A DNA stretch of 64,000 nt from Medicago truncatula (lineage: Eukaryota; Streptophyta; Magnoliopsida; Fabales; Fabaceae): assembly GCF_003473485.1 (NCBI RefSeq), contig NC_053044.1:31996091-32060090 (forward strand), written 5' to 3'. Below, one piece after another: positions 33,981 to 64,000 of this stretch. Position numbers and translations under genes: made by a program. Position 1 is the stretch's first letter, and every line of letters begins with the position of its first letter. Below the pieces are notes generated by a model. The model did not search any database. It was given only the letters and a program-made list of their open reading frames with translations, and was not told the origin of the DNA.

Positions 33981-34014
33981 TGTCACCTTGACAACATGGT
34001 ATAAGATTCATTTT

Positions 34015-34187
34015 TTTTTTTGGCTTTCGCACCGGTTTCCGACCCACCAAAGGTGGGCGACTAATCCGGCTCGTGCGTAGAGGCATGCATACTGGCCAAG
34101 CGTTGTTTCCCCTGGGAATCGAACCCAGTATTCCCCGGGTGCGTTCTTGAAAGGAGCTCCTTGCCACTGGAGCACAAGCAACTTAGT
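34015..34187 (-). mobile_element. tRNA-derived SINE with a perfect target duplication
   Basis: On the minus strand it starts TAAGTTGCTTGTGCTCCAGT and has a box B, GGGTTCGATTCCC. It ends with a GGTGCGAAAGCC phrase and an A tail (the T run at 34,011-34,020). The 18-base TGGTATAAGATTCATTTT flanks it on both sides (33,997-34,014 and 34,188-34,205). The uninterrupted target is seen in the paralogous spacers at about 41,047, 46,268 and 53,450. The pol III promoter looks whole, so the insertion is fairly recent. Confidence 0.85.
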
Positions 34188-34205
34188 TGGTATAAGATTC
34201 ATTTT

Positions 34206-34726
34206 AGTCATGTGGCACAAGAACTGTTTCTTTTTTTCTCAGAAAGGAATTTTACACAAAAATTATCTGTCTGATAGTAAAAATAACAACCAAATAACAC
34301 CGTTAGTCTGAACATCATAGGAGAAGAAACATCCGCTCTCATTATCGGTCCCTCACTTTCCCTTATTTTTGTCATGATTACTTTTCTTTATCATCTTACT
34401 CCTACCACTGTGATATTAAAAAAGCATTGTTGATGGTTCTTCGTGACGTTAAATAAATTGGCACCATTTAGGCATTTTCCTTCATAAGTTAGTAATGCAT
34501 CTTCAACTTATTACTAGTGCCCTGAATAATACCTTTTAGAATTGGTTTCCTTCTTCTAGATGAATTCTTATATGTATATATTATGCTTTTGATAGAAACA
34601 TGGCACACTTCACTTTCACCAATATTTTCATTGTTTCTTTCGTATGGGCCAAATCAAGGAACCTGTAGGTTGGCTGTAAGATTATTTTCGCTATTATTTT
34701 CTAGATGACCATAATAGTGTAGTTAG
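34206..34726. repeat. Diverged TPS spacer below copy B, left of the 12.4-kb repeat
   Basis: Matches the spacers at about 41,060 and 46,620-47,130 with many differences. At 34,590-34,726 it already matches 46,995-47,130 closely, with only about three substitutions. From 34,727 on it matches 47,131 onward almost perfectly, so the repeat boundary falls here. Confidence 0.6.
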
Positions 34727-34905
34727 CTGTAAGATTAAGAAAGTCCAATTGCAATGCTTATAATTTCATTGAAGTACAAGGTTTGAGTACCAATAAACAA
34801 ATGGGTCATTAGTACCAAGAGAACCATGAGAACAATATTGCCTAATTTAAATTACAAAATCAATATGTTGTACATAAACAACAGAACACAATATCTGAAA
34901 ATGTA

Positions 34906-37176
34906 CTAATTACACCCAACACTAACATTAATCAATGACTTGACATGTTCCTGGAGATTAGAGAGGCTTGGGTTGCTCTTATAGTGGTACATGAGGGGAA
35001 CCATTCTTGCAGCATTGAGACAAAAGTTGGAAAATGACGATGAAAACTGATTTGCAACCAGAATTTCTTGATTGAGACATTTCCATTCATTTGAAATCAT
35101 GTGAGCAACATGTCTTTGCACGTCTTCACCGGAAATATCTTGGTGTTCACTCATGTAGCAATCAAGGTATGACCCATCAAGACCATTTTGCTCTCCACTC
35201 TGCATTCATTCATGGATAATAATTCTTATCATTAGAACTTTACATTTTACAATTGCGTTAATTGGTTGAACAATTTAATCAAATATTTGTTTAATATAAT
35301 TTAGGAGACATATTTCATACCTTAGCTCCTTCTAAATCATCAGAGAGACGAAGAATTTTGGCCACTGAATATATGACATTTGGAAACTTTTCATCCAAGA
35401 TATCAATTGTCTCCTTTGTTATACCATTAACATGATCCAACAGGAAGAATGCATGTATAAGCACAACATGAACTCCAGTGCTCACGATTCCATTATTCAA
35501 GTAATCCTCTGCTCTTGGCAAGTGTCCAGAATTCAACCAATGGGCCTCTTCCATGAAAGCGTTCAATAAGAGTATCCACTGTTTCGCACAAATATTTTTA
35601 TATACTCAGTTGTTTGAAAAAATAATTTATATATATGATGAAATAAAGAAGACAGATAGCTAGTGTACCGATTTTTTGAGAGTGTCTATAGGGTTAAATC
35701 CATGCTTTTTGTAGACCATTTCAGCAAAACTATTGGTAATGTCGTAAAGTGCATTCAAAGCTATTTTCATGAAGTTTGGAAGTTGCTCTGTACCAGTGAA
35801 TTCCCACCTGAATTAAAAAATTGCATAGTAAGTATTACTGTAAAGCATGAATGTAATATTTATATATATTTGTATATAGGAGGTATATTTTTTATAGATC
35901 ATGCGCTACAAACCCTTTGTGGAAAATTATGATATTAAGCCTCACTTAGTTTATGACTATAATTATATATATGAATTAACTAAATTATGAGATGTATATA
36001 TTTATTCAAAATTGAATACCTGTTAACAGCGTCTGTGAATATTGTAAGTTGATCCAATGTCGCGTGAACGTCGAAAATGTCATCAATGACATAAATTAGA
36101 GAGATAGGTTTGGTGAGCTCAATCCTTTGTTCTGAAAAGTTTGGATCTGTAAAGCATGCCATGGGCCATGTGTACCATTTCAGAGGTTGATACTCCGAAA
36201 ACTTCACCTCCTTGGCTAGTCCAAGTTCTTTCCACCATCTATCATTTGAGAGAATAATTACATTAGTGATTTCTATCTAAATTTTGAATAGTTATAAGGT
36301 CAACATAGATTTTTAATTAGAAAACATACTTGGAAACTTCAATGGTCTCATTCTGATTCCTGAACCTAACTATGGTGGAATTGATTTTAGCAAGTTCCTC
36401 TAAACATATCAAATCCTTCTCAGCCTTCAAATCATGGATGAATGTGCTTTTATCCATAAATCTTGACAAGCCATAGTGAAGAGGATTCTGAAGAGTGTTT
36501 ACAACATGTATAGCTTCATTATGTTCTTGGTTTCTTGATAGCCAATTATGTAGAAGCTCACGGCAGAGATATCCTACATCGTTAAGACTATCTTCTCCGT
36601 CAATACTTAGTTGTGATGCTTCGTAAAGGGCAATGAGGCCTTTCAAATCCTCACCATGTTTTTCTTCAAACATTCTTTTGTTGCACTTCAAGCTGTCAAA
36701 TAAATCTACACAACAATTATAGTTAGTCACTATATTACTAAATACTCCTATAGTAAAATTATGTATTCAAATGTAGAGAGGGTACGAATTAAACTAACCT
36801 GCATTGACATAGTGGCCTCCTTGTCTCAGCAAGCGGAATGCAAGTGAAAATTCATAGAGTTCATGGCTATTCACAAAATCAATAGGATTGGTGTTCAATA
36901 TCAAATGTAGCTTTTCAAGAGCCACTTTGATCTCCTCAGCAAAATAGTGTTCAATGCCAAACCTTTGGATGATATCGATCAAATAAAAACTCTCCATCGA
37001 ATCTTCGATTTTAACAAGTTTCTTATAAACTTGCTTAAATATCAAAGCTTGCTTAACATATGTAACATCCTGAAAAAGTCAAAGTGCAGATTGATCAGAA
37101 CATTGAAATAAAGCTATGTTGTAACTAAGTTTAGAATAACTGTATATATTTGTACTTCAGTTAAAATACTTACCAT
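34906..37176 (-). CDS. Terpene synthase copy B, TPS-g type, 519 aa
   Basis: Exons in coding order: 37174-37176, 36799-37069, 36330-36705, 36020-36238, 35669-35807, 35321-35578 and 34906-35199, all GT-AG and in phase (1,560 bases). It is one codon shorter than copies A and C because exon 2 reads NPIDF instead of NPIIDF. DDIFD is kept. The RxR position reads SEYQPLKW, with glutamate where A and C have glycine. Exon 7 starts SGEQNG rather than SGDQNG, so an acid residue lies one place beyond the canonical NSE/DTE glutamate position. Exon 6 begins [14 protein letters not shown]. The neighbouring spacers and TATA box match the other copies. B is clearly distinct from A and C at many residues, so it is a separate lineage and not a recent copy of C. 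Confidence 0.88.
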
Positions 37177-37280
37177 TCTAGAAATTAATGCTTTGATAAT
37201 AAAACAGACTTGATTCGGTGTTTATAGCTGGGGATTGTTAAGATGATTATTTTGAAGAAATGGGAATGATATGTTGAGCT

Positions 37281-37288
37281 ATTTATAG
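37281..37288 (-). promoter_or_regulatory. TATA box of TPS copy B (same in D and F)
   Basis: Minus-strand CTATAAAT about 105 bases upstream of the start codon; the identical box is at 49,684-49,691 (D) and 62,088-62,095 (F). The distance leaves room only for a short leader, which argues that no upstream coding exon is missing. Confidence 0.6.
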
Positions 37289-37339
37289 TTTAACATTGCA
37301 CTCGTTTCATATTTGCTCTTTTGAGCTACTGGTAGATTG

Positions 37340-37910
37340 AAGGTCAGCATGTGTATGCAGCATGTGCATTGTAACACATTAATTTATTTAGTTATAATAT
37401 TGATGCATTATGTCGCTGACTTCATGTTGTCTATTCATGACTTTTCAACACTAAATAACAAAACAAATATTAATTTAAAGGAGAACATGTTTCTTTTATT
37501 AAAATATATAATCAATGCCCATTCTTCCACACAAAAAATGTGCCTTACGTTAATACTTGTTTATTTTGTGAGGCACTCTAGATTGATCTGAATTTGTTGG
37601 TTTAATTTAAAGTTTCTATTGAACATTCAAATATAATATAAAGAATTATGCAAGAACCACACTCTTTTCAACAAACTCTCTTTAGTTGGTTGGATTTTAA
37701 ATGGGCCTCACTAAATTAATGGGAGCTACATGATTTAATATAACTCATTTGACTTGCAACAAATTAGAGAATGTGTTGGAGATAGTGTATTAAATAGTGT
37801 GTTACTATCGCTCCTCGTAATGTATTTGTTTAGAAGATAAAGTAAATTGTAAAGGTAAAGAAGCCGCTTTGGTTGATGTTCTTGATAAATTTCTATATGA
37901 TTTTTCTTTA
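37340..37910. other. Upstream flank of TPS B
   Basis: Continues the TPS 5' flank shared with A and C (ATTAATTTAAAGGAGAACATG), then unique AT-rich sequence. No gene is seen; an 84-codon plus-strand frame at 37,337 matches no family and is not credited. Repeated at 49,740 and 62,144. Confidence 0.4.
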
Positions 37911-37913
37911 TGA

Positions 37914-38240
37914 GAATGTTAACAACACTCTCTCTAATACTTACTCTCTTATTGGTGGGTAATTTACCTTAATCAATGAGCATTCACCTTTTTAGATGGT
38001 ATCCATAAACTATCTTGACCCCACCAATAAATTGTTCATTTTCATCGGTTGATGGGTAAATTACCCATCATACTTCAAAGGTAATCTAGAAAAAACCTTA
38101 TGTTAAATATCCACGTGATCGCTACTTTAAGTGGTACTCATTTCTAAAATATTTGACTTATATTAATTTCATTCAATAAAAAATAAGTGTTAGAGCATAG
38201 TGTGTTAGAATGAAAATGTTTTTAACATTTCTCTTTTCTT
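37914..38240. mobile_element. Probable MITE in the TPS spacer
   Basis: The left end reads GAGAATGTTAACAACACTCTC and the right end, read inward, gives AATGTTAAAAACATTTTCATTC; these are imperfect inverted repeats. Inner palindromes include GGGTAAATTACCC. The same element sits at about 50,317 and 62,720 through the large duplication. Confidence 0.4.
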
Positions 38241-39585
38241 CACTATATAGTAAGAGCAATGCTAGTAACACATATTTTAACACACTTTAATCGGTTAAAA
38301 TTCACATGGACCCCAAAAAAGACTCCTAAACATACTCTGCTGAAGCGAAAAAGTGATTCTAAATGAATGCCAATATAACAGTGATTCTATAAAATGTTTG
38401 GTTCATATATATAAACAGAATACATCACACAAAAAGCAAACATATCACATATTCAACTAATTTTCCATATCCACAGCTTGAGTTAAAACCTATGAAGCAT
38501 TAACACATACACGATCATGTAACACGTGGACACCGGTAATAATTTGAGAAAATGACAAAATTGAATGTAATTACATGTGTCGGTATCAGAAACAAGCATG
38601 TGTCAGACACCGGACACGTCTTCCGTTAGAAGTGTCGGTGTTACAAAGGTCAATTTATTTGGGAAATGGAGAGAGAAAGAAGTATATGAAAGACACTTGT
38701 TATTCAATAACATTCAAGTTCAGCGAAAAACTCTAACTAACTTCTAGTCTCTATTAACAACCTTGTAAGCTACATTACAAGCAACAATTACTTCCTATTT
38801 TCTACTTTGAATTACAATCAACAGAAAGAAAAAACACTAACTCAAGATTCAATTACAAGTGCATCCATATTTTGTTTTCCTTCAGGTTATTTGGTATAAC
38901 ATGATTACACATAGGATCCATAAACAGCACCCCCGTATTTACCTTGTCATGAATCATTTATTATAGAATGAAAAATGATATTCTGAGACGAAACTTTTAT
39001 GCTTTGTTGATTAATGATTATTAGAACCGAGATGCATATTTTTCCTGTGCTTCACATGTAGTTAAAAATTTGCCAAGAACCATGACCGATCACCCTGTAA
39101 TGAGAGTAAACTCTAATTTAATAATGCTTATCACCAGGCCCCTGATTTAATAACTTCATTCCTTTATGGTTTGGTTAGGGTAAGCTTTTAACTTGTTTAA
39201 AATATTAACAGAGCTAGAAAAACAAAAATTTCAGCATAAAAATTTCAGAACTAGACCCTTAATGTTATTTTATGTTTAGTGCAAAAGGGAAATGAGGATC
39301 TAATGAGATTTTTTAGGTTTTGACTTTTGGTTCTTTGATTTCAAGCTTGGTATTACAGACCTTAGTCTGCACTCTGGAATTTTCAAATATTTAGATAATT
39401 GCAAGTTTAAAGGAGTTTTGTCAACATGTTGTAACTAGTAATTGTTTGCCTCCTTCCATGGAACCAAAACTCAAAGCAAATGCCCGAGTAATTTTAATAA
39501 CTTCATTCCTTTATGGTTTGGTTAGCTCCTTTCTTCTTTGATGGTCTCTCAGCGTTTCTCTGTTTAACTCTCTCTAAAATAAGTG
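38241..39585. other. TPS spacer with LTR scraps and a GTGTCGG repeat
   Basis: No gene. Around 38,575-38,645 short inverted phrases (ATGTGTCGGTATC, ACACCGGACACG, AGTGTCGGTGTT) suggest a small repeat; a related phrase is at 9,030. About 38,665-38,825 is a copia-like LTR scrap related to 31,495-31,775. The rest is AT-rich spacer. Confidence 0.4.
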
Positions 39586-39589
39586 ATAT

Positions 39590-39960
39590 CCGCTGGAAAT
39601 GACTTGGAAGCTATTTATACCATGTCTGGTAAGTAACTGCTCACTTAGCCATGCCCAGGCTCACCGTGGCGAGCGAAGCTTTCTTCACCAATGGGTTTCT
39701 GCCACATCAGCAAAGTGGCCCTCAAACCACCTTAGCTCCCGTGGCGAGCTCATGTCTTTCTCAGCCACGCCTTGTTTTTCTGATTTTCCTTGCTCTCTGT
39801 CTACCCTCACTGCAGCTTCGCTATGGCGAGCCTCTTGGCCATGACCTCATTGTGGGCTCGTTGTGGCCATGGTGACAGCATCTGATTTTCTTCACTTTCT
39901 GACTTGCCTTCGCTTTGGTCTCGCTTTGAGCTTGCTTAGCAAACCTCTTGACATATTTTT
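39590..39960. repeat. GC-richer island of unknown origin in the TPS spacer
   Basis: This stretch is clearly richer in G and C than its surroundings and repeats phrases such as CGTGGCGAGC, CTATGGCGAGCC and GTGGCCATGG. Two overlapping plus-strand frames of about 75-80 codons exist but show no domain. It looks like part of a retrotransposon LTR or untranslated region. Copied at 51,993-52,363. Confidence 0.35.
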
Positions 39961-40159
39961 CTTTCCTTTTTTATCTTAAAGTCCATGGCAAGTGAATTTT
40001 ACCTACATAAATGTTGGTATTAGACATAAAACGCACATATTGCTATTTTTCTATTAATTTGGAGCTTTTACATAGATAATTTGCAAAACAAGTTAATAAG
40101 TGCCTTAATTATACATGTGATTTATCCAATTTCTGGCACTTACCAACTCGCAAACAAAA

Positions 40160-40440
40160 CCTTGTTGAATTAGAGAGAAAGAACTATATGAAATTAAAGA
40201 CACTTGTTATTAAATTAGAGAGAAAGAAGTATATGAAAGACACTTATTATTGAATGGAATTGTTGAGTGAAGAAGTGGTTGTTAAAACTGTGTATTACTC
40301 CTTTTATAGAGGAGGATAACACTCACTCACCGTAGTTCCTTGTCAGGCAAGTAACCATTCAAATTAACAACCTTGTAAGCACCATTACAAGAAACAGCTA
40401 CTTCCTATTTTATAGTTTGAATTACAATCGATAGAAATAA
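40160..40440 (-). mobile_element. LTR remnant, copia-like, in the TPS spacer
   Basis: Same family and orientation as 31,495-31,775, with the CCTCTATAAAAGGAG core and the CATATACTTC/CTCTCTAATT tract present twice. Fossil without internal region; duplicated at 52,563-52,843. Confidence 0.45.
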
Positions 40441-40479
40441 AAAAACACTAACCCAAGATTCAATAACTGTGCTTTGGTA

Positions 40480-41467
40480 TACCACGATTACACATAGGCT
40501 CCATAAACAACACCCTGGAATTTAGCTGGTGATGAATCATTGAATAGTTCAGAAACAAGCGAGGTTTTGTCTGTCTTGGCTGGGTCATGAAATGTTGCTA
40601 CAGAGAGCCTTGCTCTATCATAATACAATGCTAGTCAGCCACATATCCTATAAAAGCTTGGTTTCATGTATGGATATTGTTGTAAACTCAAAAATCACTA
40701 TGAATGAAAGATAATATTTTGATATGAAACTTTTATTCTTTCATACATAGATACATGAGCAAACATCCTATACAAGCATGGCATATTTTCCTGTGCTTCA
40801 CGTGAAGTTATGGGTTTTCTATGAACCTTGACCCAACCACACTCAACGTCCTTCCTACAATGATCTTAAACACAATCAGAAAAACACAATTGTTCGCATG
40901 ATTAGTCGTAATTGAAAGCTTGCCTCGATGTCTAAATAAGTAAATTACATTATTGAATAATTGACTTGCACTGATTAATTGGATCTCAGTAATGTGATGA
41001 CACTCAGAAACTCTTAGTTTCATGTACTTTAGTCACCTTGACAACATGGTATAAGATTCATTTTAGTCATGTGGCACAAGAACTGTTTCTTTTTTTCTTA
41101 AAAGGGATTTTACACAAAATATTTCTGACAGTAAAAATAACAACCAAGTAACACTGTTAGTCTGAACATCACAGGGGCACCATGGTATAAGATTTTTAGT
41201 CATGTGGCACCATTTAGGCATTTTCCTTCATAATTTAGTAATGCATCTTCAGCTTATTACTAGAGCCCTGAAGTACAATAGCAGTTAGCTGGAAGATTAA
41301 GAAAGTCCAATTGCAATGCCTATAATTTCATTGAAATACAAGGTTTGAGTACAAATAAACAAATGGGAAATTAGTACCAAGCGAACAATGAAAACAATAT
41401 TTCCTAATTTAAATTACAAAATCAATATGTTGTGCAGAAACAACATAACACAATGTTTGAAAATGTA
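40480..41467. repeat. TPS spacer module below copy C
   Basis: Homologous to 26,150-28,156 (below A) and 45,640-47,309 (below D). It is the clean reference for three insertions seen elsewhere: the Stowaway-like MITE (26,745), the SINE (34,015) and the LTR-like element (46,339). The spacer below B lacks the left 540 bases, which are replaced there by the LINE. Confidence 0.65.
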
Positions 41468-43643
41468 CTAATTGCGTCCAACACCAACGTTAATCAATGA
41501 CTTGACATGTTCCTGGAGATTAGAGAGGCTTGGATTGCTCTTATAGTGGTACATGAGGGGAACCATTCTAGCAGCATTCAGACAAAAGTTGGAAAATGAT
41601 GATGAAAACTGATTTGCAACCAGAATTTCTTGATTGAGAAATTTCCATTCATTTGAAATCATGTGAGCAACATGTCCTTGCACGTCTTCACTGGAAATAT
41701 CTTGGTGTTCACTCATGTAGCAATCAAGGTATGACCCATCAAGACCATTTTGATCTCCACTCTGCATTCATCCATGATAATTCTTATCATTAGAACTTTA
41801 CATTTAACAATCGAGTTAAGTGGTTGAACAATTTAATCGAATACTTGTTTAATATTCTAATTTAGGAGACATATTTCATACCTTAGCTCCTTCTAAATCA
41901 TCAGAGAGACGAAGAATTTTTGCCACTGAATATATGACATTTGGAAACTTTTCATCCAAGATATCAATTGTTTGCTTTGTTATACCATTAACATGATCCA
42001 ACAGGAAGAATGCATGTTCAAGCACAACATGCACTCCAGTGCTCACAATTCCATTGTTCAAGTAATCCTCTGCCTTTGGTAAGTGACCAGAATTCAACCA
42101 ATGAGCCTCTTCCATGAAAGCGTTCAATAAGCGTATCCACTGTTTCACCAAAATAATTTTATATATACTCAGTCATTTGAAAGAATAATTTATATATATG
42201 ATAAAATATAAAAGACGGTTAGTTAGTATACCGATTTTTTAAGAGTATCTATAGGGTTGAATCCATGCTTCTTGTAGACCTTTTCAGCAAAATTATTGGT
42301 AATGTCGTAAAGTGCATTCAAAGATATTTTCATGAACTTTGGAAGTAGCTCTGTGCCAGTGATTTCCCACCTGAATCAAAAATCATTTCATAGTAAGTAT
42401 CAAAGTGAAGCATCAATGTAATATTTGTATATCTTTGCAGAGGCATATGTATGTATTAATGAGATGTATATAATTATTCAAAATTTAATACCTGTTAACA
42501 GCGTCTGTGAATATTGTCAGTTGATCTAATGTCGCGTGAACATCGAAAATGTCATCAATGACATAAATTAAAGAGATAGGTTTGGTGAGCTCAATCCTTT
42601 GTTCGGAAAAGTTTGGATCTGTAAAGCATGCCATCGGCCATGTGTACCATTTGAGAGGTTGATACCCCGAAAACTTCACCTCCTTGTCTAGTCCAAGTTC
42701 TTTCCACCATCTGTCATTTGAGAGAACAATTACGTTAGTGATCTCTATCTAAATTTTGAATAGTTTTAAGTTCAACATAGAGTTTTAATTAGAAAACATA
42801 CTTGGAAACTTCAGTGGTCTCATTCTGATTCATGAACCTAACTATGGTGGAGTTGATTTTAGCAAGTTCCTCTAAACATATCAAATCCTTCTCTTCCTTC
42901 AAATCATGATTGAATGTGCTTTTATCCATAAATCTTGACAAGCCATAGTGAAGTGGATTCTGAAGAGTGTTTGCAACATATAAAGCATCCTTATGTTCTT
43001 GGTTTCTTGACAACCATGCATGTAGAAGCTCACAACAAAGGTATCCTACATCGTTAAGACAATCTTCTCCTTCAATACTTAGTTGCGATGCTTCGTAAAG
43101 GGCAATGAGACCTTTCACATCCTCACCATGTTTTTCTTCGAACATTCTTTTTGTACACTTCAAGTTGTCAAACAAATCTACACAACAATTATAGTTAGGC
43201 ACTATATTACTAATTAATACTAGTAAACTCGTATATATTCAAATGTAGTGAGGGTATGTATTAAACAAACCTGGATTTACGTAATGGCCTCCTTGTCTCA
43301 GCAAGCGGAATGCAAGTGCAACTTCATAGAGTTCATGGCTACTCACAAAATCAATTATAGGATTGGTGTTTAATATCAAATGTAGCTTTTCAAGAGCCAC
43401 TTTGATCTCCTCAGCAAAGTAGTGTTCAATGCCAAACCTTTGGATAATATCTATCAAATAAAAACTCTCCATGGGATCTTCGATTTTAACAAGTTTCTTA
43501 TAAACTTGCTTAAATATCAAAGCTTGTTTGACATATGTAGCATCCTGAAAATGTAAAAGTGCAGATTGATCAGTACTTTGAAATAAAATATTTTAAATTT
43601 GAACAGCTGTATATATTTGTACTTCAATTAAAATACTTACCAT
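41468..43643 (-). CDS. Terpene synthase copy C, TPS-g type, 520 aa
   Basis: Exons in coding order: 43641-43643, 43271-43544, 42802-43177, 42492-42710, about 42232-42370, 41882-42139 and 41468-41761, giving 1,563 bases in frame. It resembles copy A more than B at several sites, for example FSGYQPLKW and [10 protein letters not shown]. It differs elsewhere: [13 protein letters not shown] in exon 6, [11 protein letters not shown] in exon 3, and a C-terminus ending VGVGRN. DDIFD is intact. The first exon again supplies only the initiator ATG before GTAAGT. Its promoter has a TATA box at 43,763-43,770. Confidence 0.88.
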
Positions 43644-43762
43644 TCTGGAAATTAATGCTTTGATAGTAAATTAAAACAGACTTGATTCAGTGTTTATAGC
43701 TGGGGATATTGTTAAGATGTGAAGATGATTATTTTGAAGAAATGGGAATGATATGTGGAGCT

Positions 43763-43770
43763 ATTTATAG
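43763..43770 (-). promoter_or_regulatory. TATA box of TPS copy C (same in E)
   Basis: Minus-strand CTATAAAT about 120 bases upstream of the start codon; the duplicate is at 56,166-56,173. The region between box and ATG lacks the insertion found in copy A. Confidence 0.6.
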
Positions 43771-43799
43771 TTTAACATTGCACACGATTCTTATTTGTT

Positions 43800-46338
43800 A
43801 TTTTGGGTTACTGAATGATTGAAGGTCAACATATGTATGCTGCATATGTGTATTGTAACACATTAATTTATTAGTAGTTTTTCTTTTGTATTTATTAGTT
43901 ATATTTTGCCAATGCTTGTTATAGTAGTTTTTTTTTGGTAGAAGTTATAGTATGTTGTTGATGTGCTGTTGTCTATTCATGACTATTTAACATTAATTAA
44001 ATAACAACGATTAATTTAAAGAACATGTTTCTTGTTTATTTTGTGAGAGGCTAACATGCATGATTTTTACTTATAAAATAGTAGTAATACGTGGAATAAG
44101 AATGAAACATAAAATACATCACTGAGTTAGTATAGTGTTGCTTCTATTAATGAGCTTAAGGTCAATTTTGACGTGAGTTCATCTCAGTAAATTGTTTTTT
44201 TTTTTTTTTATCTCTCTTTTAATCAAATAAATGATATTCATATACTTTTTGAGTGTTCATTCGTATAATTTTGTGATTAGGCCATCTTAGCATAATATTG
44301 TTTGTTTTGATCTCCGGTCTTTGTGTGATGTTTTTTGATTTTTTTCGTTTTAATTCGTTGTTTATTTCATTAAAGTTAAAAGGTTATCTTAATCCAATGA
44401 AGATTCAACCAATAATTTTTGTGTCGTCATTGTTTTCAATCATATTTACTGGTTTATATACTTTGTTGTTTTATACTATTAATATGGATATTGTGAATTT
44501 GTTCGCAACTTCATTGTTTTTTATTTTATTTTAGCGACGTAATGTATTGATGTATATCAACTTGAATGAATAATAGTTTATTTTGTCGTCAACAATAATA
44601 ATTATAATAAGGTTTAGATAAGATTTTAATTTTGTAAATATAATATTCATTGTAAAAACCTTATTTTTATTTTTAGTCCTTGCAAACATGCAACTTTTTG
44701 TTTTTGGTCCCTTGTTCTTTTGCTTAGTCCATGCAAACTTGGTTTATTTATGTAATTTGTCCTTCCAAATATGCGTCATTTGAGTTTTTCGTCCTTGAAA
44801 TAGCTAATCTTTACAAATAGCCATTCTATTTACTAATCAATTTAGTTTTGGTTCTTAATCTCATTTTCTAGCTGACGTGGAATGTGATTACTGACATGAC
44901 ACACGTTGACTGGGAAACAATGAGGATGAGTCAGCAAATAACACTTGAATGGACATCTTTGCCCTTAATATGTATAGGAAAAGACAAAAAAACCTTCTTG
45001 CTTCTCCTAAACTTGCTTCAATCTTCTTCTCCAAGATCAGTTCGTCATCTCTTCCGCTCTCTCCACACCAGTTCAAGCTCGTCAACAATTGAAAAATCCG
45101 TAACGAACAGAAAGAAAAGCTTTGAAGTTTTAATTTTCTTTCTTCATTGCCATCGTCTTTGCCTTTGTATTCAGCTACATAACCTATAGTTGAAGAAAAT
45201 AAAACAATCGTTTATTGGAGAAAGATTAAGCTTGAAATCAACATTAGAAGATTCTGAGAAACCTCTCTTTCCACAACTATTTTTAACCAGGGATTCTTCG
45301 TTATCACTTTATCTGGGAAGATTGAGTCGTAATTCCACCGACAAGGTGGCCACCGTCGCCCCTCGACTTCTCTAACACTTCTTCCCTTTCTTAAATTTTT
45401 GGTTCTGCCTCGATAGAGTAAGAGCATCCACAATGGGTCTTATGTGTACACATCACTAAAACTGTGCATTACTCCTTTTATAGATGAGAATAACACTCAC
45501 TAACCGAAGTTACTTGTCAGGCAAGTAACCATTCAAATTAACAACCTTGTAAGCTACATTACAAGCAACAGATACTTCCTATTTTCTAGTTTGAATTACA
45601 ATCAACAGAATAAAAAAGACTAACTCAAGATTCAAAAGCTGTGCTTTGGTATATACACATAGGCTCCATAAACAACACCCTGGTATTTAGCTGGTGATGA
45701 ATCATTGATTAGTTCAGAAACAAGGGTGGTTTTGACTGTCTTAACTGGGTTGATGAAGTGTTGCCACAGAGAGCCTTGCTTTATCAAAATAAATCAAACT
45801 TGTTGACAACTTCAAGTTCACGAATGAGTCATTTATCAGGAAAATATAAAGAAGTCGCTAACCGCCATAATACAATGCTAGCCAGCCACATATCCTATAA
45901 AAGCTTGATTTCATGTATTGATATTGTTGTTAACTCAAAAATCATTAAAGAATGAAGATAAACTTTGAAATTAAACTTTTATGCTTTCATGTATAGATAC
46001 ATGAGCAAACATCGTACAAAAGCATGTCATATTTTTTTGTGCTTCACGTGAAGTTATGAGTTTTCAATGAACCTTGACCCGACCACACTCAACGTCCATC
46101 TGGCAATGATCGTAAACACAATCAGAAAAACACAATTGTTCGCATAATTAGTTTTAATTGAATAATTGACTTGCACTGATTAATTGGATCTCAGCAATGT
46201 GATGACAGTCAGAAACTCTTACCAAACCTTTAAAATGTAGTGTCATGTACTTTAGTCACCTAGCAACATGGTATAAGATTCATTTTAGTCACGTGGCACA
46301 AGAACTGTTTCTTTTTTTCTTAGAAGGGATTTTACACA
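43800..46338. other. Spacer between TPS C and D
   Basis: No credible gene. The first 250 bases are the shared TPS upstream flank. About 44,660-44,880 carries TTAGTCCTTGCAAACATGC-type phrases common at the ends of MULE-type elements. About 44,900-45,400 has several small frames on both strands, none with a recognisable domain. About 45,450-45,610 is a copia-like LTR scrap. From 45,640 the shared TPS spacer module begins. Copied at 56,203-58,741. Confidence 0.4.
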
Positions 46339-46619
46339 TGTTAAACTGTGTAATTACTAGAAACAATAGATAGCTTGTAGAGCAAGGTATCCTGCCATAC
46401 CAAGGAACTTTACCATGCACTGGCTTTAGATGATTCTAGTCCTAGCTAATAGTTAGTTACAATTAGTTATGATTATATGAAGCTATATATAGCTATGTTG
46501 TAACAAACTCTTTTCAGTTGAATGAATCAATAGATTTTCTCTCATTTTCTCTATTTCTTCTTCCTCAAGCTTCTACATTTTCTCTGAATTCACCATGATT
46601 ATGGTGAAGTTTATGAACA
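46339..46619. mobile_element. 281-base solo-LTR-like insertion in the spacer below TPS D
   Basis: It begins TGTTAAACTG and ends TATGAACA, so the tips are inverted (TGTT/AACA), and a T/C-rich tract precedes the end. The paralogous sequences at about 34,250 and 41,110 run ATTTTACACAAAA without it. Probably a small copia-like solo LTR. The exact target duplication is blurred by ACACA repeats at the junction. Confidence 0.5.
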
Positions 46620-47309
46620 CAAAAATTGTCTGATAGTAAAAATAATAACCAAGTACATTGTTAGTCTGAACATCATAGGAGAAGAAACATCAGCTCTCAT
46701 TATCGGTTCCTCTCTTTCTCTTTATTTAGGCACTAGCGGTTAGGAGTCAGCTCGGTTCACAATTTTATTTATGTACATGATAGGGTGAGTGGCCATTTTA
46801 TTTTTCCTTATCTCCCCCTTCTTATTTTTCTCATGATTACTTTTCTTTACCAACTTACTTCTATCACTGTGATATTAAAAACACATTGTTGGTGGTACTT
46901 CATGACCTTAAATAAATTGGCCTCCTTTAGGCATTTTCCTTCATAATACTGCTATCTTTTAGAATTGGTTTCCTTCCTCTATTATTAAATTTTTGATAGA
47001 AACATGGCACACTTCACTTTCACCAATATTTTCATTGTTTCTTTCGTATGGGCCAAATCAAGGAACCTGTAGGTTGGCTGTAAGATTACTTTCGCTATTA
47101 TTTTCTAGATGACCTTAATAGTGTAGTTAACTGTAAGATTAAGAAAGTCCAATTGCAATGCTTATAATTTCATTGAAGTACAAGGTTTGAGTACCAATAA
47201 ACAAATGGGTCATTAGTACCAAGAGAACCATGAGAACAATATTGCCTAATTTAAATTACAAAATCAATATGTTGTACATAAACAACAGAACACAATATCT
47301 GAAAATGTA
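46620..47309. repeat. TPS spacer module below copy D, right part
   Basis: Homologous to 34,206-34,905 and 41,130-41,467. It contains the left boundary of tandem unit 2 at 47,131 and presumably the 3' UTR of copy D. No gene is seen. Confidence 0.5.
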
Positions 47310-49580: not shown

Positions 49581-49743
49581 TCTAGAAATTAATGCTTTGA
49601 TAATAAACAGACTTGATTCGGTGTTTATAGCTGGGGATTGTTAAGATGATTATTTTGAAGAAATGGGAATGATATGTTGAGCTATTTATAGTTTAACATT
49701 GCACTCGTTTCATATTTGCTCTTTTGAGCTACTGGTAGATTGA

Positions 49744-52700: not shown

Positions 52701-53870
52701 CTCCTTTTATAGAGGAGGATAACACTCACTCACCGTAGTTCCTTGTCAGGCAAGTAACCATTCAAATTAACAACCTTGTAAGCACCATTACAAGAAACAG
52801 CTACTTCCTATTTTATAGTTTGAATTACAATCGATAGAAATAAAAAAACACTAACCCAAGATTCAATAACTGTGCTTTGGTATACCACGATTACACATAG
52901 GCTCCATAAACAACACCCTGGAATTTAGCTGGTGATGAATCATTGAATAGTTCAGAAACAAGCGAGGTTTTGTCTGTCTTGGCTGGGTCATGAAATGTTG
53001 CTACAGAGAGCCTTGCTCTATCATAATACAATGCTAGTCAGCCACATATCCTATAAAAGCTTGGTTTCATGTATGGATATTGTTGTAAACTCAAAAATCA
53101 CTATGAATGAAAGATAATATTTTGATATGAAACTTTTATTCTTTCATACATAGATACATGAGCAAACATCCTATACAAGCATGGCATATTTTCTTGTGCT
53201 TCACGTGAAGTTATGGGTTTTCTATGAACCTTGACCCAACCACACTCAACGTCCTTCCTACAATGATCTTAAACACAATCAGAAAAACACAATTGTTCGC
53301 ATGATTAGTCGTAATTGAAAGCTTGCCTCGATGTCTAAATAAGTAAATTACATTATTGAATAATTGACTTGCACTGATTAATTGGATCTCAGTAATGTGA
53401 TGACACTCAGAAACTCTTAGTTTCATGTACTTTAGTCACCTTGACAACATGGTATAAGATTCATTTTAGTCATGTGGCACAAGAACTGTTTCTTTTTTTC
53501 TTAAAAGGGATTTTACACAAAATATTTCTGACAGTAAAAATAACAACCAAGTAACACTGTTAGTCTGAACATCACAGGGGCACCATGGTATAAGATTTTT
53601 AGTCATGTGGCACCATTTAGGCATTTTCCTTCATAATTTAGTAATGCATCTTCAGCTTATTACTAGAGCCCTGAAGTACAATAGCAGTTAGCTGGAAGAT
53701 TAAGAAAGTCCAATTGCAATGCCTATAATTTCATTGAAATACAAGGTTTGAGTACAAATAAACAAATGGGAAATTAGTACCAAGCGAACAATGAAAACAA
53801 TATTTCCTAATTTAAATTACAAAATCAATATGTTGTGCAGAAACAACATAACACAATGTTTGAAAATGTA
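49744..53870. other. Spacer between TPS D and E, copy of 37,340-41,467
   Basis: Same contents as in unit 1: the MITE-like element (about 50,317-50,643), LTR scraps (about 51,068-51,228 and 52,563-52,843), the GC-richer island (51,993-52,363) and the TPS spacer module (from 52,883). No gene is seen. Confidence 0.6.
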
Positions 53871-56046
53871 CTAATTGCGTCCAACACCAACGTTAATCAA
53901 TGACTTGACATGTTCCTGGAGATTAGAGAGGCTTGGATTGCTCTTATAGTGGTACATGAGGGGAACCATTCTAGCAGCATTCAGACAAAAGTTGGAAAAT
54001 GATGATGAAAACTGATTTGCAACCAGAATTTCTTGATTGAGAAATTTCCATTCATTTGAAATCATGTGAGCAACATGTCCTTGCACGTCTTCACTGGAAA
54101 TATCTTGGTGTTCACTCATGTAGCAATCAAGGTATGACCCATCAAGACCATTTTGATCTCCACTCTGCATTCATCCATGATAATTCTTATCATTAGAACT
54201 TTACATTTAACAATCGAGTTAAGTGGTTGAACAATTTAATCGAATACTTGTTTAATATTCTAATTTAGGAGACATATTTCATACCTTAGCTCCTTCTAAA
54301 TCATCAGAGAGACGAAGAATTTTTGCCACTGAATATATGACATTTGGAAACTTTTCATCCAAGATATCAATTGTTTGCTTTGTTATACCATTAACATGAT
54401 CCAACAGGAAGAATGCATGTTCAAGCACAACATGCACTCCAGTGCTCACAATTCCATTGTTCAAGTAATCCTCTGCCTTTGGTAAGTGACCAGAATTCAA
54501 CCAATGAGCCTCTTCCATGAAAGCGTTCAATAAGCGTATCCACTGTTTCACCAAAATAATTTTATATATACTCAGTCATTTGAAAGAATAATTTATATAT
54601 ATGATAAAATATAAAAGACGGTTAGTTAGTATACCGATTTTTTAAGAGTATCTATAGGGTTGAATCCATGCTTCTTGTAGACCTTTTCAGCAAAATTATT
54701 GGTAATGTCGTAAAGTGCATTCAAAGATATTTTCATGAACTTTGGAAGTAGCTCTGTGCCAGTGATTTCCCACCTGAATCAAAAATCATTTCATAGTAAG
54801 TATCAAAGTGAAGCATCAATGTAATATTTGTATATCTTTGCAGAGGCATATGTATGTATTAATGAGATGTATATAATTATTCAAAATTTAATACCTGTTA
54901 ACAGCGTCTGTGAATATTGTCAGTTGATCTAATGTCGCGTGAACATCGAAAATGTCATCAATGACATAAATTAAAGAGATAGGTTTGGTGAGCTCAATCC
55001 TTTGTTCGGAAAAGTTTGGATCTGTAAAGCATGCCATCGGCCATGTGTACCATTTGAGAGGTTGATACCCCGAAAACTTCACCTCCTTGTCTAGTCCAAG
55101 TTCTTTCCACCATCTGTCATTTGAGAGAACAATTACGTTAGTGATCTCTATCTAAATTTTGAATAGTTTTAAGTTCAACATAGAGTTTTAATTAGAAAAC
55201 ATACTTGGAAACTTCAGTGGTCTCATTCTGATTCATGAACCTAACTATGGTGGAGTTGATTTTAGCAAGTTCCTCTAAACATATCAAATCCTTCTCTTCC
55301 TTCAAATCATGATTGAATGTGCTTTTATCCATAAATCTTGACAAGCCATAGTGAAGTGGATTCTGAAGAGTGTTTGCAACATATAAAGCATCCTTATGTT
55401 CTTGGTTTCTTGACAACCATGCATGTAGAAGCTCACAACAAAGGTATCCTACATCGTTAAGACAATCTTCTCCTTCAATACTTAGTTGCGATGCTTCGTA
55501 AAGGGCAATGAGACCTTTCACATCCTCACCATGTTTTTCTTCGAACATTCTTTTTGTACACTTCAAGTTGTCAAACAAATCTACACAACAATTATAGTTA
55601 GGCACTATATTACTAATTAATACTAGTAAACTCGTATATATTCAAATGTAGTGAGGGTATGTATTAAACAAACCTGGATTTACGTAATGGCCTCCTTGTC
55701 TCAGCAAGCGGAATGCAAGTGCAACTTCATAGAGTTCATGGCTACTCACAAAATCAATTATAGGATTGGTGTTTAATATCAAATGTAGCTTTTCAAGAGC
55801 CACTTTGATCTCCTCAGCAAAGTAGTGTTCAATGCCAAACCTTTGGATAATATCTATCAAATAAAAACTCTCCATGGGATCTTCGATTTTAACAAGTTTC
55901 TTATAAACTTGCTTAAATATCAAAGCTTGTTTGACATATGTAGCATCCTGAAAATGTAAAAGTGCAGATTGATCAGTACTTTGAAATAAAATATTTTAAA
56001 TTTGAACAGCTGTATATATTTGTACTTCAATTAAAATACTTACCAT
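53871..56046 (-). CDS. Terpene synthase copy E, identical protein to C
   Basis: Exons in coding order: 56044-56046, 55674-55947, 55205-55580, 54895-55113, 54635-54773, 54285-54542 and 53871-54164. Exon translations match copy C residue for residue. It lies 12,403 bases from C with the same splice sites and promoter. Confidence 0.88.
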
Positions 56047-58741
56047 TCTGGAAATTAATGCTTTGATAGTAAATTAAAACAGACTTGATTCAGTGTTTAT
56101 AGCTGGGGATATTGTTAAGATGTGAAGATGATTATTTTGAAGAAATGGGAATGATATGTGGAGCTATTTATAGTTTAACATTGCACACGATTCTTATTTG
56201 TTATTTTGGGTTACTGAATGATTGAAGGTCAACATATGTATGCTGCATATGTGTATTGTAACACATTAATTTATTAGTAGTTTTTCTTTTGTATTTATTA
56301 GTTATATTTTGCCAATGCTTGTTATAGTAGTTTTTTTTTGGTAGAAGTTATAGTATGTTGTTGATGTGCTGTTGTCTATTCATGACTATTTAACATTAAT
56401 TAAATAACAACGATTAATTTAAAGAACATGTTTCTTGTTTATTTTGTGAGAGGCTAACATGCATGATTTTTACTTATAAAATAGTAGTAATACGTGGAAT
56501 AAGAATGAAACATAAAATACATCACTGAGTTAGTATAGTGTTGCTTCTATTAATGAGCTTAAGGTCAATTTTGACGTGAGTTCATCTCAGTAAATTGTTT
56601 TTTTTTTTTTTTATCTCTCTTTTAATCAAATAAATGATATTCATATACTTTTTGAGTGTTCATTCGTATAATTTTGTGATTAGGCCATCTTAGCATAATA
56701 TTTTTTGTTTTGATCTCCGGTCTTTGTGTGATGTTTTTTGATTTTTTTCGTTTTAATTCGTTGTTTATTTCATTAAAGTTAAAAGGTTATCTTAATCCAA
56801 TGAAGATTCAACCAATAATTTTTGTGTCGTCATTGTTTTCAATCATATTTACTGGTTTATATACTTTGTTGTTTTATACTATTAATATGGATATTGTGAA
56901 TTTGTTCGCAACTTCATTGTTTTTTATTTTATTTTAGCGACGTAATGTATTGATGTATATCAACTTGAATGAATAATAGTTTATTTTGTCGTCAACAATA
57001 ATAATTATAATAAGGTTTAGATAAGATTTTAATTTTGTAAATATAATATTCATTGTAAAAACCTTATTTTTATTTTTAGTCCTTGCAAACATGCAACTTT
57101 TTGTTTTTGGTCCCTTGTTCTTTTGCTTAGTCCATGCAAACTTGGTTTATTTATGTAATTTGTCCTTCCAAATATGCGTCATTTGAGTTTTTCGTCCTTG
57201 AAATAGCTAATCTTTACAAATAGCCATTCTATTTACTAATCAATTTAGTTTTGGTTCTTAATCTCATTTTCTAGCTGACGTGGAATGTGATTACTGACAT
57301 GACACACGTTGACTGGGAAACAATGAGGATGAGTCAGCAAATAACACTTGAATGGACATCTTTGCCCTTAATATGTATAGGAAAAGACAAAAAAACCTTC
57401 TTGCTTCTCCTAAACTTGCTTCAATCTTCTTCTCCAAGATCAGTTCGTCATCTCTTCCGCTCTCTCCACACCAGTTCAAGCTCGTCAACAATTGAAAAAT
57501 CCGTAACGAACAGAAAGAAAAGCTTTGAAGTTTTAATTTTCTTTCTTCATTGCCATCGTCTTTGCCTTTGTATTCAGCTACATAACCTATAGTTGAAGAA
57601 AATAAAACAATCGTTTATTGGAGAAAGATTAAGCTTGAAATCAACATTAGAAGATTCTGAGAAACCTCTCTTTCCACAACTATTTTTAACCAGGGATTCT
57701 TCGTTATCACTTTATCTGGGAAGATTGAGTCGTAATTCCACCGACAAGGTGGCCACCGTCGCCCCTCGACTTCTCTAACACTTCTTCCCTTTCTTAAATT
57801 TTTGGTTCTGCCTCGATAGAGTAAGAGCATCCACAATGGGTCTTATGTGTACACATCACTAAAACTGTGCATTACTCCTTTTATAGATGAGAATAACACT
57901 CACTAACCGAAGTTACTTGTCAGGCAAGTAACCATTCAAATTAACAACCTTGTAAGCTACATTACAAGCAACAGATACTTCCTATTTTCTAGTTTGAATT
58001 ACAATCAACAGAATAAAAAAGACTAACTCAAGATTCAAAAGCTGTGCTTTGGTATATACACATAGGCTCCATAAACAACACCCTGGTATTTAGCTGGTGA
58101 TGAATCATTGATTAGTTCAGAAACAAGGGTGGTTTTGACTGTCTTAACTGGGTTGATGAAGTGTTGCCACAGAGAGCCTTGCTTTATCAAAATAAATCAA
58201 ACTTGTTGACAACTTCAAGTTCACGAATGAGTCATTTATCAGGAAAATATAAAGAAGTCGCTAACCGCCATAATACAATGCTAGCCAGCCACATATCCTA
58301 CAAAAGCTTGATTTCATGTATTGATATTGTTGTTAACTCAAAAATCATTAAAGAATGAAGATAAACTTTGAAATTAAACTTTTATGCTTTCATGTATAGA
58401 TACATGAGCAAACATCGTACAAAAGCATGTCATATTTTTTTGTGCTTCACGTGAAGTTATGAGTTTTCAATGAACCTTGACCCGACCACACTCAACGTCC
58501 ATCTGGCAATGATCGTAAACACAATCAGAAAAACACAATTGTTCGCATAATTAGTTTTAATTGAATAATTGACTTGCACTGATTAATTGGATCTCAGCAA
58601 TGTGATGACAGTCAGAAACTCTTACCAAACCTTTAAAATGTAGTGTCATGTACTTTAGTCACCTAGCAACATGGTATAAGATTCATTTTAGTCACGTGGC
58701 ACAAGAACTGTTTCTTTTTTTCTTAGAAGGGATTTTACACA

Positions 58742-59022
58742 TGTTAAACTGTGTAATTACTAGAAACAATAGATAGCTTGTAGAGCAAGGTATCCTGCCA
58801 TACCAAGGAACTTTACCATGCACTGGCTTTAGATGATTCTAGTCCTAGCTAATAGTTAGTTACAATTAGTTATGATTATATGAAGCTATATATAGCTATG
58901 TTGTAACAAACTCTTTTCAGTTGAATGAATCAATAGATTTTCTCTCATTTTCTCTATTTCTTCTTCCTCAAGCTTCTACATTTTCTCTGAATTCACCATG
59001 ATTATGGTGAAGTTTATGAACA
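58742..59022. mobile_element. Duplicate of the 281-base solo-LTR-like insertion
   Basis: Copy of 46,339-46,619 carried along by the 12.4-kb duplication, with the same flanks, so it was in place before the array expanded. Confidence 0.5.
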
Positions 59023-59712
59023 CAAAAATTGTCTGATAGTAAAAATAATAACCAAGTACATTGTTAGTCTGAACATCATAGGAGAAGAAACATCAGCTCT
59101 CATTATCGGTTCCTCTCTTTCTCTTTATTTAGGCACTAGCGGTTAGGAGTCAGCTCGGTTCACAATTTTATTTATGTACATGATAGGGTGAGTGGCCATT
59201 TTATTTTTCCTTATCTCCCCCTTCTTATTTTTCTCATGATTACTTTTCTTTACCAACTTACTTCTATCACTGTGATATTAAAAACACATTGTTGGTGGTA
59301 CTTCATGACCTTAAATAAATTGGCCTCCTTTAGGCATTTTCCTTCATAATACTGCTATCTTTTAGAATTGGTTTCCTTCCTCTATTATTAAATTTTTGAT
59401 AGAAACATGGCACACTTCACTTTCACCAATATTTTCATTGTTTCTTTCGTATGGGCCAAATCAAGGAACCTGTAGGTTGGCTGTAAGATTACTTTCGCTA
59501 TTATTTTCTAGATGACCTTAATAGTGTAGTTAACTGTAAGATTAAGAAAGTCCAATTGCAATGCTTATAATTTCATTGAAGTACAAGGTTTGAGTACCAA
59601 TAAACAAATGGGTCATTAGTACCAAGAGAACCATGAGAACAATATTGCCTAATTTAAATTACAAAATCAATATGTTGTACATAAACAACAGAACACAATA
59701 TCTGAAAATGTA

Positions 59713-61983
59713 CTAATTACACCCAACACTAACATTAATCAATGACTTGACATGTTCCTGGAGATTAGAGAGGCTTGGGTTGCTCTTATAGTGGTACATG
59801 AGGGGAACCATTCTTGCAGCATTGAGACAAAAGTTGGAAAATGACGATGAAAACTGATTTGCAACCAGAATTTCTTGATTGAGACATTTCCATTCATTTG
59901 AAATCATGTGAGCAACATGTCTTTGCACGTCTTCACCGGAAATATCTTGGTGTTCACTCATGTAGCAATCAAGGTATGACCCATCAAGACCATTTTGCTC
60001 TCCACTCTGCATTCATTCATGGATAATAATTCTTATCATTAGAACTTTACATTTTACAATTGCGTTAATTGGTTGAACAATTTAATCAAATATTTGTTTA
60101 ATATAATTTAGGAGACATATTTCATACCTTAGCTCCTTCTAAATCATCAGAGAGACGAAGAATTTTGGCCACTGAATATATGACATTTGGAAACTTTTCA
60201 TCCAAGATATCAATTGTCTCCTTTGTTATACCATTAACATGATCCAACAGGAAGAATGCATGTATAAGCACAACATGAACTCCAGTGCTCACGATTCCAT
60301 TATTCAAGTAATCCTCTGCTCTTGGCAAGTGTCCAGAATTCAACCAATGGGCCTCTTCCATGAAAGCGTTCAATAAGAGTATCCACTGTTTCGCACAAAT
60401 ATTTTTATATACTCAGTTGTTTGAAAAAATAATTTATATATATGATGAAATAAAGAAGACAGATAGCTAGTGTACCGATTTTTTGAGAGTGTCTATAGGG
60501 TTAAATCCATGCTTTTTGTAGACCATTTCAGCAAAACTATTGGTAATGTCGTAAAGTGCATTCAAAGCTATTTTCATGAAGTTTGGAAGTTGCTCTGTAC
60601 CAGTGAATTCCCACCTGAATTAAAAAATTGCATAGTAAGTATTACTGTAAAGCATGAATGTAATATTTATATATATTTGTATATAGGAGGTATATTTTTT
60701 ATAGATCATGCGCTACAAACCCTTTGTGGAAAATTATGATATTAAGCCTCACTTAGTTTATGACTATAATTATATATATGAATTAACTAAATTATGAGAT
60801 GTATATATTTATTCAAAATTGAATACCTGTTAACAGCGTCTGTGAATATTGTAAGTTGATCCAATGTCGCGTGAACGTCGAAAATGTCATCAATGACATA
60901 AATTAGAGAGATAGGTTTGGTGAGCTCAATCCTTTGTTCTGAAAAGTTTGGATCTGTAAAGCATGCCATGGGCCATGTGTACCATTTCAGAGGTTGATAC
61001 TCCGAAAACTTCACCTCCTTGGCTAGTCCAAGTTCTTTCCACCATCTATCATTTGAGAGAATAATTACATTAGTGATTTCTATCTAAATTTTGAATAGTT
61101 ATAAGGTCAACATAGATTTTTAATTAGAAAACATACTTGGAAACTTCAATGGTCTCATTCTGATTCCTGAACCTAACTATGGTGGAATTGATTTTAGCAA
61201 GTTCCTCTAAACATATCAAATCCTTCTCAGCCTTCAAATCATGGATGAATGTGCTTTTATCCATAAATCTTGACAAGCCATAGTGAAGAGGATTCTGAAG
61301 AGTGTTTACAACATGTATAGCTTCATTATGTTCTTGGTTTCTTGATAGCCAATTATGTAGAAGCTCACGGCAGAGATATCCTACATCGTTAAGACTATCT
61401 TCTCCGTCAATACTTAGTTGTGATGCTTCGTAAAGGGCAATGAGGCCTTTCAAATCCTCACCATGTTTTTCTTCAAACATTCTTTTGTTGCACTTCAAGC
61501 TGTCAAATAAATCTACACAACAATTATAGTTAGTCACTATATTACTAAATACTCCTATAGTAAAATTATGTATTCAAATGTAGAGAGGGTACGAATTAAA
61601 CTAACCTGCATTGACATAGTGGCCTCCTTGTCTCAGCAAGCGGAATGCAAGTGAAAATTCATAGAGTTCATGGCTATTCACAAAATCAATAGGATTGGTG
61701 TTCAATATCAAATGTAGCTTTTCAAGAGCCACTTTGATCTCCTCAGCAAAATAGTGTTCAATGCCAAACCTTTGGATGATATCGATCAAATAAAAACTCT
61801 CCATCGAATCTTCGATTTTAACAAGTTTCTTATAAACTTGCTTAAATATCAAAGCTTGCTTAACATATGTAACATCCTGAAAAAGTCAAAGTGCAGATTG
61901 ATCAGAACATTGAAATAAAGCTATGTTGTAACTAAGTTTAGAATAACTGTATATATTTGTACTTCAGTTAAAATACTTACCAT
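59713..61983 (-). CDS. Terpene synthase copy F, identical protein to B and D
   Basis: Exons in coding order: 61981-61983, 61606-61876, 61137-61512, 60827-61045, 60476-60614, 60128-60385 and 59713-60006. It is the only gene of unit 3 inside the window. Its upstream A-run matches B rather than D. Confidence 0.88.
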
Positions 61984-62146
61984 TCTAGAAATTAATGCTT
62001 TGATAATAAAACAGACTTGATTCGGTGTTTATAGCTGGGGATTGTTAAGATGATTATTTTGAAGAAATGGGAATGATATGTTGAGCTATTTATAGTTTAA
62101 CATTGCACTCGTTTCATATTTGCTCTTTTGAGCTACTGGTAGATTG

Positions 62147-64000
62147 AAGGTCAGCATGTGTATGCAGCATGTGCATTGTAACACATTAATTTATTTAGTT
62201 ATAATATTGATGCATTATGTCGCTGACTTCATGTTGTCTATTCATGACTTTTCAACACTAAATAACAAAACAAATATTAATTTAAAGGAGAACATGTTTC
62301 TTTTATTAAAATATATAATCAATGCCCATTCTTCCACACAAAAAATGTGCCTTACGTTAATACTTGTTTATTTTGTGAGGCACTCTAGATTGATCTGAAT
62401 TTGTTGGTTTAATTTAAAGTTTCTATTGAACATTCAAATATAATATAAAGAATTATGCAAGAACCACACTCTTTTCAACAAACTCTCTTTAGTTGGTTGG
62501 ATTTTAAATGGGCCTCACTAAATTAATGGGAGCTACATGATTTAATATAACTCATTTGACTTGCAACAAATTAGAGAATGTGTTGGAGATAGTGTATTAA
62601 ATAGTGTGTTACTATCGCTCCTCGTAATGTATTTGTTTAGAAGATAAAGTAAATTGTAAAGGTAAAGAAGCCGCTTTGGTTGATGTTCTTGATAAATTTC
62701 TATATGATTTTTCTTTATGAGAATGTTAACAACACTCTCTCTAATACTTACTCTCTTATTGGTGGGTAATTTACCTTAATCAATGAGCATTCACCTTTTT
62801 AGATGGTATCCATAAACTATCTTGACCCCACCAATAAATTGTTCATTTTCATCGGTTGATGGGTAAATTACCCATCATACTTCAAAGGTAATCTAGAAAA
62901 AACCTTATGTTAAATATCCACGTGATCGCTACTTTAAGTGGTACTCATTTCTAAAATATTTGACTTATATTAATTTCATTCAATAAAAAATAAGTGTTAG
63001 AGCATAGTGTGTTAGAATGAAAATGTTTTTAACATTTCTCTTTTCTTCACTATATAGTAAGAGCAATGCTAGTAACACATATTTTAACACACTTTAATCG
63101 GTTAAAATTCACATGGACCCCAAAAAAGACTCCTAAACATACTCTGCTGAAGCGAAAAAGTGATTCTAAATGAATGCCAATATAACAGTGATTCTATAAA
63201 ATGTTTGGTTCATATATATAAACAGAATACATCACACAAAAAGCAAACATATCACATATTCAACTAATTTTCCATATCCACAGCTTGAGTTAAAACCTAT
63301 GAAGCATTAACACATACACGATCATGTAACACGTGGACACCGGTAATAATTTGAGAAAATGACAAAATTGAATGTAATTACATGTGTCGGTATCAGAAAC
63401 AAGCATGTGTCAGACACCGGACACGTCTTCCGTTAGAAGTGTCGGTGTTACAAAGGTCAATTTATTTGGGAAATGGAGAGAGAAAGAAGTATATGAAAGA
63501 CACTTGTTATTCAATAACATTCAAGTTCAGCGAAAAACTCTAACTAACTTCTAGTCTCTATTAACAACCTTGTAAGCTACATTACAAGCAACAATTACTT
63601 CCTATTTTCTACTTTGAATTACAATCAACAGAAAGAAAAAACACTAACTCAAGATTCAATTACAAGTGCATCCATATTTTGTTTTCCTTCAGGTTATTTG
63701 GTATAACATGATTACACATAGGATCCATAAACAGCACCCCCGTATTTACCTTGTCATGAATCATTTATTATAGAATGAAAAATGATATTCTGAGACGAAA
63801 CTTTTATGCTTTGTTGATTAATGATTATTAGAACCGAGATGCATATTTTTCCTGTGCTTCACATGTAGTTAAAAATTTGCCAAGAACCATGACCGATCAC
63901 CCTGTAATGAGAGTAAACTCTAATTTAATAATGCTTATCACCAGGCCCCTGATTTAATAACTTCATTCCTTTATGGTTTGGTTAGGGTAAGCTTTTAACT
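62147..64000. other. Upstream spacer of TPS F, cut by the window end
   Basis: Copy of 37,340-39,196, including the MITE-like element (about 62,720-63,046) and an LTR scrap (about 63,471-63,631). No gene is seen. Confidence 0.5.

Follow-up and report, generated by a model that had tools for sequence, protein, structure and literature searches.

The window analysed here, a 64,000-nucleotide stretch of Medicago truncatula DNA, reads as plant DNA, with a GC content of 32.7%, split genes, a two-exon dUTPase gene, terpene synthases and retrotransposon remains. We identified six terpene synthase (TPS) genes, all on the minus strand. Gene A (28157..30340) is a paralogue that lies outside, and to the left of, a tandem array that holds the other five: B1 (34906..37176), C1 (41468..43643), B2 (47310..49580), C2 (53871..56046) and B3 (59713..61983). 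B and C are local gene names and do not denote the subfamilies TPS-b and TPS-c; the same applies to the B-type and C-type genes of an earlier reading made from the letters alone (the sequence-only reading). The gene models are predictions, of which B1 was built first and the others were projected from it. The seven exons of B1 (37176-37174, 37069-36799, 36705-36330, 36238-36020, 35807-35669, 35578-35321 and 35199-34906, minus strand) encode a protein of 519 aa, and the GT-AG introns, open frame and Pfam matches indicate an intact terpene synthase gene. Genes A and C1 are also intact, each encoding 520 aa. All six genes have seven exons and GT-AG introns, and in all of them exon 1 supplies the ATG alone, directly followed by GTAAGT of the first intron. 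The coding sequences of B1, B2 and B3 are the same, as are those of C1 and C2, in agreement with the earlier claim that the encoded proteins are identical from unit to unit. TPS relics beyond the six genes were sought by tblastn and found in 0 of 72 rows.

The B protein matches both PF03936 (E 8.4e-68) and PF01397 (E 1.3e-30), and the A and C proteins are 93% and 92% identical to it, respectively. By these two domains the predicted products belong to the plant terpene synthase family. A search of NCBIfam, a library for prokaryotes, gave no match with B. Among the 44 distinct sequences of solved structure listed for B, the best scoring are named as limonene, camphene/tricyclene, cineole and isoprene synthases, which we take to be TPS-b enzymes. 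The metal-binding DDxxD motif is present as DDIFD in A, B and C. The second motif, NSE/DTE, was sought in what we take to be its usual form, [ND]D[LIV]x[STG]xxxE, and no strict match was found in A, B or C. Its site reads DDLEGAKSG, followed one place late by E (in B) or D (in A and C). The ninth-place Glu is present in all four of the solved relatives for which alignments were printed, among the 44 listed. This non-canonical motif falls at the joint of exons 6 and 7 of B1 (35321-35199) and at the corresponding position in A, C1, B2, C2 and B3.

The RR(X)8W motif had no match in A, B or C. The cited passages on subfamily TPS-g describe its members as being without RR(X)8W (PMC6681836, PMC11901113) and report seven exons in most rose TPS-g members (PMC11901113), a number shared with TPS-a and TPS-b. 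An assignment of A, B and C to TPS-g would fit the lack of RR(X)8W, the DDIFD motif and the seven exons. TPS-g enzymes are further characterised by acyclic products and by grouping together in a phylogenetic tree. The proteins presumably also resemble strawberry FaNES1. The open frames and a dN/dS of about 0.2 (0.16-0.23) among A, B and C point to constraint on the proteins, and class I terpene synthase activity is predicted for them.

From 34,727 to the end of the window, self-BLAST reveals a unit of 12,404 or 12,403 bases repeated head to tail 2.36 times, which confirms the arrangement proposed in the sequence-only reading. This copy number is a minimum, given that the array continues past the window end. 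Unit 1 (34727..47130; 12,404 bases) contains gene B1, the B-C spacer (S2), gene C1 and the C-B spacer (S3). Unit 2 (47131..59533; 12,403 bases) contains B2, S2, C2 and S3 in the same order, and unit 3 (59534..64000), cut by the window end after 4,467 bases, contains B3 and part of S2. Positions 34587-51596 match 46991-64000 with 99.95% identity over 17,011 columns (six mismatches and two gap openings), and three of the six mismatches, at 34685, 34711 and 34726, lie to the left of the unit proper. Thus, the units are in direct orientation and nearly identical, the form that a tandem array made by unequal crossing-over takes. When units 1 and 2 were each shuffled once, the longest exact match between them was 14 bases, compared with perfect stretches of 1,597-3,709 bases in the real alignment, so chance is excluded as the source of the repeat. 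The near-identity extends over genes and spacers alike for the full 12.4 kb, and nowhere is it broken by remnants of older divergence.

Compared over their full length, units 1 and 2 show four differences, namely three SNPs and a 1-base indel, the same count that had earlier been made on parts of the units. The substitutions, given as unit 1/unit 2, are C/T at 40791/53194, G/T at 44300/56703 and T/C at 45898/58301. At the indel (37204/49608) unit 2 is without one A; the site is 28 bases upstream of the B ATG, in a putative 5' UTR, and no protein is altered. The indel is also the sole difference between units 2 and 3 over the 4,467 bases available, and there unit 3 matches unit 1, which bears out the remark that unit 3 shares a base with unit 1 and not with unit 2. 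Comparison with paralogues shows that polarisable changes occur in both units. The change at 40791 is apparently derived in unit 1 (T in the three nearest paralogues, C in three more distantly related repeat copies), and those at 58301 and at the indel (where the A is present in B1, B3, C1 and C2) apparently in unit 2. Paralogues give no polarity at 44300. Three substitutions per 12.4 kb correspond to a divergence of about 0.024%, for an age of about 17,000 years (95% interval 3,600-50,000) at 7e-9 substitutions per site per year, or 48,000 years (10,000-141,000) at 2.5e-9. Both rates are assumed values, so the dating claim is limited to "recent".

So close a likeness raises the question of whether one or two real units were written repeatedly during assembly, through a graph loop or by placing haplotypes in series. 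The near-identity itself would be expected of such an artefact, and the indel, which is one A within a run of A, is of a kind typical of consensus error. However, the other three differences are substitutions. Furthermore, short reads can hardly resolve a near-identical 12.4-kb repeat, and a repeat of this length with distinct SNPs could hardly have been written from them. The sequence-only reading had taken the few differences, and the base that unit 3 has in common with unit 1, as mild evidence against assembly duplication. Both observations are real, but the argument built on them is weak because an error in the consensus could account for the one A. The anatomy of the junctions, considered below, is the stronger argument.

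The duplications that separate genes A, B and C are much older. They are about equidistant, with dS of 0.16-0.20 (by two methods) and exons that are 5.4-6.2% different, and the aligned introns and close flanks are 12-13% different. B and C, only 6 kb apart, have dS of 0.17-0.19 and 12% noncoding difference. Because these neighbours have diverged, the cluster at large has not been homogenised by conversion. If mutation alone sets the difference, amplification of the B-C dimer would be hundreds of times younger than its gene pair. A check for mosaicism in windows of 250 columns found A, B and C near-equidistant overall. In one of these windows (36167-36416) there are 23 A-only differences compared with 8 C-only and 5 B-only, which may be due either to fast change in A or to local exchange between B and C.

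The spacers are related as well. Those to the left of A (S0), between A and B (S1), between B and C (S2) and between C and B (S3) share homologous blocks in all six pairs, with 75-100% identity and mostly in collinear order; several blocks of S2 near 38.7-39.5 kb depart from this order and match as a second, partial copy. Thus, the flanks that recombined are part of an ancient monomeric repeat. The early growth of the cluster seems to have been by such monomers, each consisting of one TPS gene with its spacer, and growth by the B-C dimer seems to be recent.

The left flank of B1 (J1, 34188..34726) is blockwise paralogous to the left flanks of B2 (J2, 46821..47130), C1 and A. J1 and J2 are 88.9% identical over 126 bases (34362-34487/46821-46946), and blastn of the two spacers gives 83.4% over 459 columns, the final 94 bases of which are the unit itself. 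A tract of 98 identical bases (34587-34684) is followed by the last differences, at 34685, 34711 and 34726, and the sequences are identical rightward of 34,726/47,130. The flank of gene A agrees with J2 at 34711 and with J1 at 34726, and is not confidently alignable at 34685. Since it sides once with each, J1 and J2 appear to have long been distinct lineages as far as 34726. The left flank of B3 (J3, 58707..59533, where 58707 is the start of the alignment) is of the same type as J2. It had been claimed that the left junction at 34,727 is unlike those at 47,131 and 59,534, and this is correct: J1 and J2 are distinct paralogues, and J3 is a copy of the J2 type. Just left of the crossover only 3 of 139 columns differ, which is less than in the flank further left; together with the 98-base tract, this may reflect a short conversion tract at the break.

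This anatomy bears directly on the question of assembly. J1 and J2 differ as flanks, and if J2 is real there must be at least two B genes. The longest exact matches in the three pairs formed by the A, B1 and C1 segments are 60, 103 and 63 bases. These lengths stand in for the match between B and a probable further TPS gene right of C (D), which would lie outside the window and is the relevant one for a false join. Since no exact match seen exceeds 103 bases (98 in the flanks), which is too short for long-read overlap, a wrong long-read join is unlikely. On the other hand, J3 only repeats the J2 junction, so the anatomy offers no separate evidence for going from two units to three, and this step is less well supported than the first. 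Overall, we regard repeated writing of one or two units by the assembler as unlikely, while granting it a modest share of the probability.

The assembled sequence contains near-identical units in direct orientation, their intact genes, and two paralogous flanks that converge at a junction. We consider it probable that these features result from recent amplification of a B-C dimer within an old TPS cluster, by unequal crossing-over between paralogous 3' flanks. The old cluster would have consisted of monomers, namely A, B, C and probably the further gene D to the right. In a first step, on one chromatid, the 3' flank of B would have aligned with its paralogous counterpart, the 3' flank of the TPS gene that follows C on the right, and crossing-over immediately to the right of 34,726/47,130 would have produced the order B-C-B'-C-D. 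J2 would then be the other parental 3' flank, with the crossover to the right of 47130. The left parental flank (J1) and the junction (J2), which are paralogous to each other, are in the window, and the right parental site would be beyond it. In a second step, the direct repeat so formed could have undergone in-register unequal exchange to yield a third unit, and perhaps more. Most simply, the effect would be an extra dose of the same enzymes. We infer the correctness of the assembly, the identity of D, the number of units in the array and the order of these events from the pattern rather than see them in the sequence. The sequence-only reading had suggested unequal crossing-over between TPS 3' flanks, and the break between paralogous 3' flanks, with J1 and J2 distinct and then identical, supports this. 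Among the three origins that it offered (recent expansion, homogenisation or duplication by the assembly), the first is favoured by the break in the flanks, the near-identity of genes and spacers and the divergence of A, B and C.

Homogenisation would require an old array whose units have been kept alike by gene conversion. Such concerted evolution is real in plants, as recurrent ectopic conversion of the tandem HMA4 genes has been described in Arabidopsis halleri (PMC3749932). In the cited account, however, conversion is reported among protein-coding sequences, whereas here whole units are alike, spacers included, without patches of old divergence over the full 12.4 kb. In addition, the near-identity starts at the paralogous crossover point, and A, B and C of the same cluster have not been homogenised. 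We therefore judge concerted evolution of an old array to be very improbable. The resemblance of the recent B-C amplification to the HMA4 triplication otherwise lies in tandem genes whose coding sequences are nearly the same, in a gene-dosage setting (PMC3749932).

The locus is a young and well-delimited example of a known process, growth of the TPS family by unequal crossing-over, and is in this sense ordinary biology; it leaves the understanding of how the family grows unchanged. In Quercus rubra, tandem TPS arrays have been attributed to unequal crossing-over, and one has 23 putative functional genes within 2 Mb (PMC10627279). The likeness to the present locus is in the tandem TPS genes and the proposed mechanism. 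The Quercus rubra arrays named are TPS-a and TPS-b, and the cited passages describe neither a near-identical two-gene unit nor a mapped crossover (PMC10627279). In grapevine, the passages cited report that TPS copy number (VvTer/VvGer) varies among cultivars and that VvTer copy number correlates with expression (PMC10061021), and 17 VviTPS-g members of Chardonnay are on one contig as tandem duplicates (PMC7216305). Tandem TPS clusters are common to grapevine and this locus, and in grapevine TPS-g members also lie in tandem; the grapevine accounts are based on qPCR and contig annotation, whereas here there is one assembled sequence with a mapped junction (PMC10061021, PMC7216305). What this locus may offer is a clear view of a TPS cluster shortly after its amplification, in which the crossover is mapped to a gene's 3' flank. 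The array could serve as a marker of copy-number variation, and could be used to test whether TPS dosage alters volatile output. A more speculative possibility, which we consider doubtful, is a coding higher-order repeat: among old TPS monomers with divergence of about 6% in exons and 12% elsewhere, only one dimer would be undergoing amplification, and the amplified unit would be kept because a higher dose of enzymes with an altered NSE metal-binding motif is favoured.

Several other features were identified in the window. An insert in the A-B spacer (33997..34201) has a copy of the 14-base direct repeat TGGTATAAGATTCA on each side, at 33997 and 34188. It interrupts the homologous block left of B1, and the repeat is single at the paralogous places 27076, 41047 and 46269. 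From its tRNA-like boxes we take the insert to be SINE-like, without a library match. Rfam at gathering scores and a tRNA scan found nothing in the window. A zf-RVT match in the same spacer (33031-33345) points to a LINE-type remnant, and the adjacent frames at 32328-32603 and 32555-32752 had no Pfam match. At 22993-23466, a match to PF25597 (retroviral-polymerase SH3-like) is above the cut-off and one to an integrase core is below it; this is presumably a Copia-type remnant. Apart from the zf-RVT, Copia and dUTPase frames, six open frames of the window had no Pfam match at E 0.1, so we name no further gene in the unit spacers, for which the search was non-exhaustive. The two-exon dUTPase gene (24996-25539) is apparently intact, with PF00692 matched by its second exon, and is a possible control for read depth. 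Short tandem arrays occur at 16344-16761 and 30610-30906, with periods of 36/119 and 163 bases, respectively, and there is an (AT)31 run at 12031-12092.
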